DNA of 28,766 nucleotides from a virus: IMG/VR virus record IMGVR_UViG_3300031775_000029, positions 1 through 28,766 of that record; one strand, given 5' to 3'. A program made the translations under genes and the position numbers. Below, in pieces: positions 21,001-23,110 of this stretch. The notes beneath the pieces are model-generated. The model did no database searches. It saw only the letters and a list, made by a program, of their open reading frames with translations, and was not told where the DNA came from. How positions within the stretch are numbered: the first letter of the stretch is position 1; each line of letters starts with the position of its first letter.

Positions 21001-22152
21001 CGCAGCGGCTTCGTTCTTTTTAAGCTTACTAATATCTCCGCCTGCATCTACTAGTCCTTTACTAGGGTTTTTTATACCTGCTGTAGTACTTTTTCCACTC
21101 GCTATATCTTTTTGTTGTTGTTCTAATTCTTCTAACTCTTCTTTAGCTTCTCTATACGCTTTTGACGCTTCCTCTGCGTTCTCTTTTGATTTTTTACCCC
21201 ATTCATTCAGTCCTGGAACGATTGCTTTAATTATAGGAACCGCCATAAGAGCAAGAGCTGCAGTTAAAGATACAACATTCTTTGTAAAAAATTCTGCTAC
21301 CGGTTCCGCTATTACTGCTATCCAGCCTTTTAGTACTTTTAGTACTTTGTCGAAAGCAACCCCTAGTTTGGCAATTTTATTTGCTTGAACATCTGTTGCT
21401 TTTGCAACTCCGTTATATTTTGTCTCTAACTGACCTTGTACTTCTACAAATACTGCTTGTTTTTTCTCATACATTGATAAGTCTTGGGCTGTTTTACCAA
21501 GAGTGGCAGCATATTTAGATTGAGCATCTGCAAGACGAAGTGTAATACCTAGTTCGTCTAAGAGTTCGGGTTCTGCTTTTGTAACACCTCTAATTAAACG
21601 ATTAAAAGAATCGGTAGTATCTCGTCCTAGAATTTTTGAAAGGTTTGCTGCACCTGCGGCTAGCTCCTCTATTTGTCCCGCACCTAATCCTGATGCGATA
21701 CCAATAGAAGCTGCTTCTGATGAAGCTTGAAAGTCCAACATAGATCCAGAGGCTGCTTGTATATCTGCAGTAAGACTTTGCATACCTACACCGGTAGCGC
21801 CTGTAAAAGCAACTTGAGATTCTTGCATGACTCTCATATCCGCTGCTTTTTTAAGAAAATTAAATGCCGCAGTAATTGCAAAGACGTTAGCAGCAAGAAC
21901 AGCGTAAGCAGGAACAAGAGTTCCTGTCATTCCTTGCGCCATCTTAGAGAAGTTTTTGGTACTGTTAGAGGACTGTTTAGATAGCCCTTTCATGTTTCGG
22001 TCTAAATTTGAAGAACCCTTACCGGCTTTCCCACTAGCTACACCTACATCATCAAGTGCAAGACCTAGTTTTTTAGCACTAACAGCCACTCTCTGCATAG
22101 ATCCACCATCAGAGGTTTGAATATCAATATATACTGTATCTTTTTTTGCCAT
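18049..22152 (-). CDS. H: Tape measure protein (lambda gpH-like), 1367 aa
   Basis: This sets tail length and is ejected during infection. The N-terminal 290 residues include the usual tape-measure region with hydrophobic stretches (81-100, 271-310). The middle (about 320-970) is helical and charged, with coiled-coil segments (EEASKAYREAKEELEELEQQ at 327-346). Residues 1025-1032 form CSSCCMGC, the only cysteines I find, followed by a Gly-rich stretch to about 1165. The C-terminus has the tape-measure signature GGVARGP then AILHGNEAVVPLPNGKDIPV (1277-1296). At roughly 0.15 nm per residue the tail would be about 200 nm (inference). It directly follows the gpT frame (TGATG overlap), the classic chaperone-tape measure order. 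Confidence 0.95.
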   Translation of the reverse strand: MAKKDTVYIDIQTSDGGSMQRVAVSAKKLGLALDDVGVASGKAGKGSSNLDRNMKGLSKQSSNSTKNFSKMAQGMTGTLVPAYAVLAANVFAITAAFNFLKKAADMRVMQESQVAFTGATGVGMQSLTADIQAASGSMLDFQASSEAASIGIASGLGAGQIEELAAGAANLSKILGRDTTDSFNRLIRGVTKAEPELLDELGITLRLADAQSKYAATLGKTAQDLSMYEKKQAVFVEVQGQLETKYNGVAKATDVQANKIAKLGVAFDKVLKVLKGWIAVIAEPVAEFFTKNVVSLTAALALMAVPIIKAIVPGLNEWGKKSKENAEEASKAYREAKEELEELEQQQKDIASGKSTTAGIKNPSKGLVDAGGDISKLKKNEAAALLRHAHDKNKKLAHMDKKQLSTYRIHLKAKVRGSYTATEKIVLYWRSMGQRMDVQNKKMVARWKAAMAMMQATAAKFTRGVDLLMKGMGLIGIILMVKDLGTQVLQMMGFFKEDKHMQDVINKFKEMNDGLVTANKEYKDFVQIQEDTRKEREKSSEVERDRLHELKIEGKMIENLGQKISEASNKMKSWKKDLKDARAEVAMLTPAQARLVEMLDRMERKSQNPRSGGGANRGRWVSNGLSKKEIDELTASYGDLHKAGVAISGIKALSAATMPEVKATNALSEGIKQLSKEQQKAAGIMSAYYGSFRTAELTIHQTRYKELLDQIVDGTFKVEESGKEFDDLTARLSKTGATAAGSMEAWSALSQQYLEVENGLTTFKTTHSDLIEQIVADRQALLDLGFTKDKGMEGAKITEYTAQLKLLRELTRQEVEYATQKLRNEKSLLAASIGKASGEKAYLNIRRQILDNDVEINKLQALEEAMRLKGIKMTPTMLAHRNEEVKILELQNRALERQLDIRTSLVDAARQGLETGLSTNIAAILKGEESSIKDALLNIMKSVVDSMIDAFAKNVTNKIMSWLNFETEEERMKRNVAEGAKKGVEDAAPTVKTETEAGIEAGSVKFVQAFDEAATRFATAIREACSSCCMGCSGGGGGGSYSGGGSQSLNTGNPPWINDGLPFDSNNVFDSNKVYGSGLTVGSGFSNPGGGDLSGSAGHMNAFGDPMEGGMMDSIPIQANSVTVTTGVAAAGAGGGEGENGAGGGTIDAGQTDKPGGGKGGSEGLEKTMGELKVEAGKMALGLGLAVTALLGNSKVAQALQKIIAIMYIWDKGKLLWEKLKDIRDKALAAAEETSRAALITALYASATVGVAKTGLYPPMGFAAGGVARGPRAGYPAILHGNEAVVPLPNGKDIPVTFPKGAGAAGGMQTNNVGVTINMDGEGGSTTETDGDSQQMEALGEKLAAMIQEELMDQKRNGGLLSPYGVG

Positions 22153-23005
22153 CAGCCTTTCACATTATGAGTGTACGATTTACCACTCGCCTGGTTTCTT
22201 TTACGTTCATCAGCCTTTCGTTTACGTTCTTGTTCGTCTGCTCTGTGAGATACTACTGTACGTTCATACATTTTCATAAAATATAAAACAGTCTTTTGAT
22301 CCTCTATTTCAAATAAACTAAATAAAGTATCTATATGACTCCAGTTTTTTCCCATATAAGAACCTGACATACCTTCCCAAACATCTGATAGATAGCTATA
22401 TACAAAAAATGCCACTTGAACCTCTGCAGGAAATGCAGTTGCTTCAAGCGGCATTCTTTCGGGATCGGGTTCCTCGCCTAATTGTTCACAGATAAGAAAA
22501 TATTTCTCAATATCAATAGAATTTGATTCTTTTACAAATCTTTCAAGTAGAGACTGTATCTCGTCTACTTGTTTCCAGTAAAATTTTCTAAATCACCTAC
22601 TGTTTCTGTGACCCACGTATCAAAGTCTGCAGCGTTTTTCATGAGTAACTCTGCGTTGTCCTTTGTATACGGCAATTCATCATCAGGCTTAAAGGAAGAG
22701 ACATCAACCAAAAGAAGCTCTTCTAGGTATCGATATTTCAGTCCTTTCCACCCTTTTATTACTGCTTCACAATAATTAACTAAAAATTTATCTTCATCCA
22801 GTTCTTCTTCAAGCTGTCGGGTTTTCTTATTCCACTTATTGGATAAGCACCTTTTACGTAGCTTGACTAGCTCTTCTCGTGCTAAATAACACAAGTCTAC
22901 TATCATTCCTTCAGACCCCGGAAAGTCACAGGAAACTGTCTTACTTGGAGTCATAAGACTCGCTAATGATACTGGCTCTTTCTTTGGTTCTGTTGTTTTT
23001 GTCAT
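22152..23005 (-). CDS. GT: gpGT tail assembly chaperone made by -1 frameshift, about 284 aa
   Basis: A fusion product of gpG and the downstream T frame. The T frame is open from just after a TGA at 22595-22593 and so overlaps the last codons of gpG. It continues to its stop at 22152, where it overlaps the tape-measure start (TGATG). A -1 slip at 22586-22580 would join gpG residues 1-142 to YWKQVDEIQSLLERFVKES and on to the basic tail RKRNQASGKSYTHNVKG. The product is about 284 residues. In lambda, gpG coats the tape measure and the T part of gpGT recruits tail-tube protein. An internal ATG at 22454 could give a separate 100-aa T-like protein, but it lacks support compared with the frameshift model. 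Confidence 0.85.
22544..22586 (-). promoter_or_regulatory. Programmed -1 ribosomal frameshift signal
   Basis: The slippery heptamer A AAT TTT (22586-22580) is in the gpG reading frame and fits X XXY YYZ. After an 8-nt spacer (22579-22572) comes a perfect 8-bp stem, CAAGTAGA (22571-22564) with TCTACTTG (22551-22544), loop 12 nt. The gpG stop TAG sits inside the 5' arm. Frame, spacer and structure all match the known arrangement for tail-chaperone frameshifts. Confidence 0.85.
22565..23005 (-). CDS. G: Tail assembly chaperone gpG, 146 aa
   Basis: The unshifted product of the chaperone gene. It is a 146-residue, charged, mostly helical protein (CYLAREELVKLRKRCLSNKW at 39-58; EEELDEDKFLVNYCEAVIKG nearby) ending DLENFTGNK. 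Family members coat the tape measure in the cytoplasm while the tail tube is built and are absent from the mature virion. Size and place (between major tail protein and tape measure) match lambda G (140 aa). AGGGA lies 9 nt before the ATG, just downstream of a consensus promoter. Sequence similarity in this family is low, so the call rests on position and the frameshift signal. Confidence 0.88.
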   Translation of the reverse strand: MTKTTEPKKEPVSLASLMTPSKTVSCDFPGSEGMIVDLCYLAREELVKLRKRCLSNKWNKKTRQLEEELDEDKFLVNYCEAVIKGWKGLKYRYLEELLLVDVSSFKPDDELPYTKDNAELLMKNAADFDTWVTETVGDLENFTGNK

Positions 23006-23031
23006 GCGAATAAATCCCTATTAAAAATTAA

Positions 23032-23060
23032 ATTATACGGTATAAGAGACGAAATGTCAA
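23032..23060 (-). promoter_or_regulatory. Perfect-consensus sigma70 promoter before the tail chaperone gene
   Basis: On the minus strand: TTGACA (23060-23055), a 17-nt spacer and TATAAT (23037-23032), 12 of 12 consensus positions. The predicted start is near 23025, about 20 nt upstream of the gpG ATG, leaving room for AGGGA (23019-23015). It sits just downstream of the hairpin that follows the major tail gene, so it restarts transcription for the gpG-to-gpJ operon. Confidence 0.9.
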
Positions 23061-23079
23061 GAATTATTTTTGTGAGGTG

Positions 23080-23110
23080 ATAAGTGAAGGGGCCGAAGCC
23101 CCTTACTTAT
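23080..23110 (-). terminator. UUCG-capped hairpin after the major tail protein gene
   Basis: A perfect 7-bp stem AAGGGGC-TTCG-GCCCCTT (23104-23087), extended by six more pairs across a one-base bulge (ATAAGT/ACTTAT). It begins at the stop codon of the major tail gene. The loop is the very stable cUUCGg tetraloop. The downstream run is not T-rich (TCACTTATCACC), so it may act as a terminator, a 3' stabiliser, or both. Its position just before the next promoter favours at least partial termination. Confidence 0.65.

Follow-up and report, generated by a model that had tools for sequence, protein, structure and literature searches.

The tail assembly chaperone gene of the analysed virus very probably (roughly 94%) contains a -1 programmed ribosomal frameshift element, by which the short protein gpG and the extended protein gpGT would both be made. 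The window, i.e. the whole stretch of 28,766 nucleotides that was analysed, carries a slip site, a downstream hairpin (SL1) and an open -1 frame (T) on its minus strand (Table 1). These features are conserved among relatives, with covariation in the hairpin, and both halves of the fusion are homologous to tail assembly chaperones.

In the proposed mechanism, the majority of the ribosomes would stop at the gpG TAG and release the 146-aa chaperone. A minority would pause on A AAT TTT owing to the hairpin, the base of which lies 8 nt downstream, and slip back by one base, with tRNA-Asn moving from AAU to AAA and tRNA-Phe from UUU to UUU. The slipped ribosomes would then read the T frame, resulting in a gpGT of 284 aa. 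By analogy with phage lambda, gpG would coat the tape measure protein and gpGT would recruit tail tube subunits. We infer the slip and its efficiency, the stimulating effect of the hairpin and these assembly roles. To our knowledge, A AAT TTT is not one of the best-known bacterial heptamers, and for this reason its efficiency in the host is uncertain.

Table 1. Features of the chaperone region, with positions in the window.
Feature	Position	Strand	Details
GC-rich hairpin GGGGCTTCGGCCCC	23102-23089	(-)	after upstream gene (probable major tail protein)
sigma-70-type promoter	23060-23032	(-)	TTGACA-17-TATAAT; 12/12 consensus match; upstream of gpG
gpG ORF	23005-22565	(-)	146 aa; TAG stop 22567-22565; ORF call
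open -1 frame (T)	22592-22152	(-)	preceding TGA 22595-22593; closing TGA 22154-22152
slippery heptamer A AAT TTT	22586-22580	(-)	gpG frame GA A-AAT-TTT
spacer ACTGGAAA	22579-22572	(-)	8 nt
SL1 hairpin	22571-22544	(-)	perfect 8-bp stem; 12-nt loop
SL1 5' arm CAAGTAGA	22571-22564	(-)	contains gpG TAG
SL1 3' arm TCTACTTG	22551-22544	(-)	
SL2 hairpin	22459-22404	(-)	inside T; ~120 nt beyond slip site; -30.7 kcal/mol
tape measure protein	22152-18049	(-)	1367 aa; PHROG 3779, E 3.2e-40

Reading frames and encoded proteins

The heptamer is the sole in-frame X XXY YYZ motif within gpG on the minus strand of the window. An earlier note on this DNA had described the heptamer, the 8-nt spacer and an 8-bp stem with the stop codon in its 5' arm, and all of these coordinates proved to be exact. 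Its further statement that the T frame is open from 22592 to 22154 and yields a 284-aa fusion after a -1 slip was confirmed on the minus strand. The T part of the predicted fusion is read from 22580 to the closing TGA, which overlaps the ATG of the tape measure ORF, so that the chaperone pair immediately precedes the tape measure gene; the junction reads ...DLENF/YWKQV. For SL1, RNAfold gave the 8-bp stem and 2 further pairs. With the window sequence alone, this local fold was better than 195 of 200 dinucleotide shuffles (z -2.4). By itself, the window sequence places the element moderately beyond chance, and the comparative tests place it far beyond.

Both predicted proteins could be assigned by profile search. 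gpG matches the PHROG 313 tail assembly chaperone (E 9.6e-14), as do 47 of the 47 members of alignment A4, and T matches the PHROG 3914 tail assembly chaperone (E 6.8e-18). The searches of Pfam and NCBIfam gave nothing useful for gpG, and a sequence search of the PDB returned no match. The AlphaFold2 model of gpG (mean pLDDT 81) has modest fold matches in the PDB, the best being YqbN (3klu, Z 6.4) and the HK97 tail assembly chaperone (2ob9, Z 5.9), with a Z of 3 or less for the remaining rows. In a viral structure library, T5-like tape measure chaperones rank first for this model. gpG is a tail assembly chaperone. A weak hint at the host is given by one relative (L175), which is located on a MAG contig titled Gammaproteobacteria.

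The reading of the gene pair as gpG/gpGT with a -1 frameshift, as put forward in the earlier note, is supported; no other reading accords with the heptamer, the open frame, the covarying hairpin, the chaperone homology and the position ahead of the tape measure gene.

Conservation of the heptamer and the SL1 hairpin

Several hundred loci were collected from viral contigs in overlapping scans. Many of them are metagenomic, and the counts given here are therefore counts of sequences and not of independent events, an overlap that the use of representatives and shuffles is intended to offset. AAATTTT is present in 242 of the 244 loci with a -1 frame and GAATTTT in the other 2; a later scan, partly overlapping with the earlier contigs, revealed AAATTTT in 80 of 80 loci. 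Among 66 divergent representatives, the codons AAT and TTT as well as the next T-frame codon TAC are 100% conserved and never synonymously varied, compared with a median majority of 0.76 for comparable two-fold codons in the same representatives. Among about 150 distinct relatives, every contig of sufficient length has an open -1 frame. The earlier note had named relatives that lack both the heptamer and an open -1 frame as evidence against the element; in the clade as sampled, the element is universal. A sequencing error or a decayed gene was ruled out as its origin, since the same architecture is found in 150 distinct relatives.

Several peculiarities were observed in individual members. The two loci with the natural variant heptamer G AAT TTT (L077, L079) have the rest of the element intact. 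In another relative (L259) the T frame has no stop: it continues for 602 codons beyond the gpG stop and enters the tape measure gene; in its sisters L260 and L262 it ends normally. Away from the slip site, synonymous codons of the gpG stretch YLEELLLVD (~22730-22700) are unusually frozen (GAA GAG, TAC). An upstream AGGTGA as a possible Shine-Dalgarno stimulator was only weakly favoured, with a mean z of -0.67 compared to about 0 in synonymous shuffles.

To count as a hairpin, a stem had to have 7 or more base pairs and to begin 3-10 nt past the slip site. Such a stem was found in 61 of the 66 representatives, whereas 11.5 were expected from synonymous shuffles preserving the T protein. Among 150 distinct sequences, the stem reaches 7 bp or more in 144, and the spacer measures 3-10 nt in 143, with a mode of 8. 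As had been proposed in the earlier note, the heptamer and stem were compared in related phages: the heptamer is near-invariant and compensatory changes in the stem were found. In 80 distinct sequences with the stem type of the window, the inner pair takes all four Watson-Crick forms (C-G 29, A-T 24, T-A 7, G-C 4), and a core pair has undergone a double change from G-C to A-U. The third base of the stop codon covaries with its partner, TAG occurring with CTA and TAA with TTA. When the partner was shifted by up to 6 nt as a slid-register control, the pairing was lost. A second clade has an identical 5' arm, while its 3' arm is located 8 nt nearer (CCAAGTA...TACTTGG). No match to the covariance models of Rfam 15 was obtained in the region 22100-23100 at E values up to 1.

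The element had originally been described as A AAT TTT with a stem enclosing the stop. The enclosure is not essential. The stop of some relatives falls within the loop or the 3' arm, or precedes the stem, and heptamer and hairpin persist, which rules out enclosure of the stop as a functional requirement. The enclosure is a common by-product of CAAGTAG. Judged by comparison among relatives, the conserved features are the hairpin and its spacing from the slip site. A strong stem is missing from the expected position in 5 of the 66 representatives, and the hairpin may therefore be dispensable at times. It is also conceivable that SL1 is retained for transcription or RNA processing and that the heptamer alone is enough for the shift, in line with the few members without a strong stem and with the T5-like relatives described below, which have no comparable conserved structure. 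However, the presence of SL1 and its spacing from the slip site are conserved while its sequence and the position of the 3' arm vary, and such a separate role is considered unlikely.

A further explanation for the fusion is transcriptional slippage, in which the RNA polymerase would add or drop a base in the AAAATTTT run and ordinary translation would yield the fusion. The site is A/T-rich, and the L235-type members have TTTTT. Yet the runs consist of just 4 A and 4 T, whereas transcriptional slippage usually needs runs of 8-9 nt. Furthermore, A AAT TTT is conserved in its exact codon phase, and a hairpin 3-10 nt downstream corresponds to a ribosomal spacing and not to that of a polymerase; slippage of the polymerase is very improbable. 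For the ribosomal -1 frameshift, the sequence features known from such signals are present: a constrained in-frame heptamer before the stop, a structure ~5-9 nt downstream and an open, coding -1 frame.

Further RNA features of the region

A second hairpin (SL2) is located within T and consists of 17 bp with an extra inner stem, its 3' arm terminating in TTTTTT and its 5' arm carrying an in-frame ATG (22454-22452). Its z is -5.8 with dinucleotide shuffles, and the clade mean z is about -3.5 with synonymous shuffles. Compensatory pairs are found among relatives, whose more divergent members in some cases have a degraded SL2 or none. It looks like an intrinsic terminator and would also bury the in-frame ATG; possible roles are attenuation of the tape measure gene, suppression of an internal start or RNase III processing.

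This ATG bears on the question whether T arises as a protein of its own, through reinitiation or from an internal start, with the hairpins serving T initiation. In favour of this are the T-frame ATG inside SL2 and the many T5-like records in which T is annotated as an independent ORF. Against this, conservation of the coding -1 frame extends as far as the slip codon, and in the alignment the fusion joins the T5-like one without a break at the invariant F142. Moreover, the heptamer is frozen, and a strong stem encloses the internal ATG, which is not preceded by a Shine-Dalgarno sequence at a suitable distance. Separate synthesis of T is thus hardly to be expected, and the -1 frameshift remains the preferred reading.

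Upstream of gpG, a promoter matching at least 11 of the 12 consensus positions was found in 38 of 65 representatives, compared to 1 of 330 shuffles. The GGGGCTTCGGCCCC hairpin or a similar one is present in many representatives. The recurrence of promoter and hairpin in many relatives suggests that gpG, T and the tape measure gene form a separate transcription unit.

Known systems and relatives with T in the +1 frame

The -1 frameshift of phage lambda gpG/gpGT was reportedly described by Levin in 1993 and by Xu in 2004, 2013 and 2014. Frameshifting in tail chaperone genes is well known, and the lambda case has been reviewed (PMC5009743). In lambda as in the window, a short chaperone and its form extended by a -1 shift are encoded immediately ahead of the tape measure gene, and by this analogy a low level of the fusion would be expected here. 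The slip site is A AAU UUU in the window and G GGA AAG in lambda. Unlike lambda, the clade of the window has a conserved hairpin, 8 nt downstream in the window, with the stop in the 5' arm in most members. Other XXXYYYZ sites for a -1 shift in phage chaperone genes are, for example, AAAAAAC in phiCbK and GGGAAAC in Colossus (PMC3556154). These phages share with the window a tandem-slip heptamer near the end of the chaperone gene preceding the tape measure gene, but their heptamers differ and they are unrelated phages. Among the hits listed in a literature search, AAAUUUU/AAATTTT was not recognised as a phage chaperone slip site, and priority for the heptamer is not claimed.

The closest named homologues comprise 903 records, mostly of T5-like phages (Demerecviridae). 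Both halves are homologous to those of the window (T5.143/T5.142 in T5), with 28-34% identity in alignment A1, and the gene order is the same, with the junction at the same invariant Phe codon. In the 12 T5-like phages examined, however, the -1 frame is closed and T is in the +1 frame at an in-frame TTT CG(A/T), which aligns with the slip Phe of the window (F142 in alignment A1). TTT_CGN is present in every T5-like phage examined that has an annotated gpG (T5-like loci L082-L092, L094 and L344, the last being T5). T5 itself has ACT TTT CGT at this site and would make a 277-aa fusion by a +1 shift. The window differs from this pattern, as its slip Phe codon is read as TTT_ACT in the gpG frame and T is in -1. 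No conserved structure comparable to SL1 was seen at the T5-like site. The homologue in Aeromonas phage AhSzq-1 (L093) is located in an unannotated stretch and has in-frame stops within T as deposited.

All 80 loci of a second, uncultivated marine group (L263-L342) have TTT CG(T/C/A); here, too, T is in the +1 frame and the -1 frame is closed. Of the 1017 other Phe codons of this group, 235 are TTC, a codon that never occurs at the slip site. UUU_CGN is known as a +1 motif from influenza A PA-X. It is likewise the established +1 frameshift motif of plant amalgaviruses (PMC5052127). In both cases the likeness is to the motif of the +1 sister groups and not to the mechanism of the window itself, and here, unlike there, tail chaperones of bacterial DNA phages are concerned. 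A genome report on a T5-like phage states that no frameshift signal is predicted in the chaperone gene of T5 or of Sugarland (PMC6256483). In Salmonella phage Shivani the chaperone gene is annotated as joined, which means that a fusion was assumed by at least one annotator.

The same frame would be entered by a -2 shift as by +1, and the joined gene of Shivani (L343, KP143763), with 832 bp for 277 aa, implies a 2-nt overlap. Nevertheless, a -2 step on ACTTT finds no matching codon, and the invariance of TTT_CGN in the 80 marine loci and the T5-like phages examined fits a +1 re-pairing from UUU to UUC. A -2 shift in the two groups is accordingly improbable, and the +1 reading is the one that we infer for these phages.

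In a protein tree with 109 rows, the -1 rows form one clade with a support of 100/100. On this tree, two changes, the minimum, are enough to account for the three groups, so that a single reversal of direction suffices, and the frameshift direction seems to have switched once. By parsimony, the ancestral direction would be +1, with a tree root that is not fixed. The L235 subclade of 8 contigs (L235, L349-L356) has AAATTTTTCG, i.e. GCA AAT TTT TCG; if one T were removed, the site would read AAT TTT CGA and T would be in the +1 frame. Gain or loss of one base at the slip site would convert one direction into the other. The sister groups probably make homologous fusions by opposite shifts at one Phe codon, T5 and its relatives shifting +1 at UUU_CGN. 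The direction would have flipped a single time, by a one-base indel from TTT_CG to AAT_TTT_TCG, a form that the L235 subclade retains; gain of the hairpin and replacement of the CG would have followed.

The element of the window is the known gpG/gpGT device, a well-supported further case with a less usual heptamer. The comparison outweighs the element itself: if true, a conserved fusion has survived the reversal of its frameshift direction, and the L235 subclade looks like an intermediate of this reversal. For T5, a concrete candidate frameshift site is gained where none was predicted in the published genome report.
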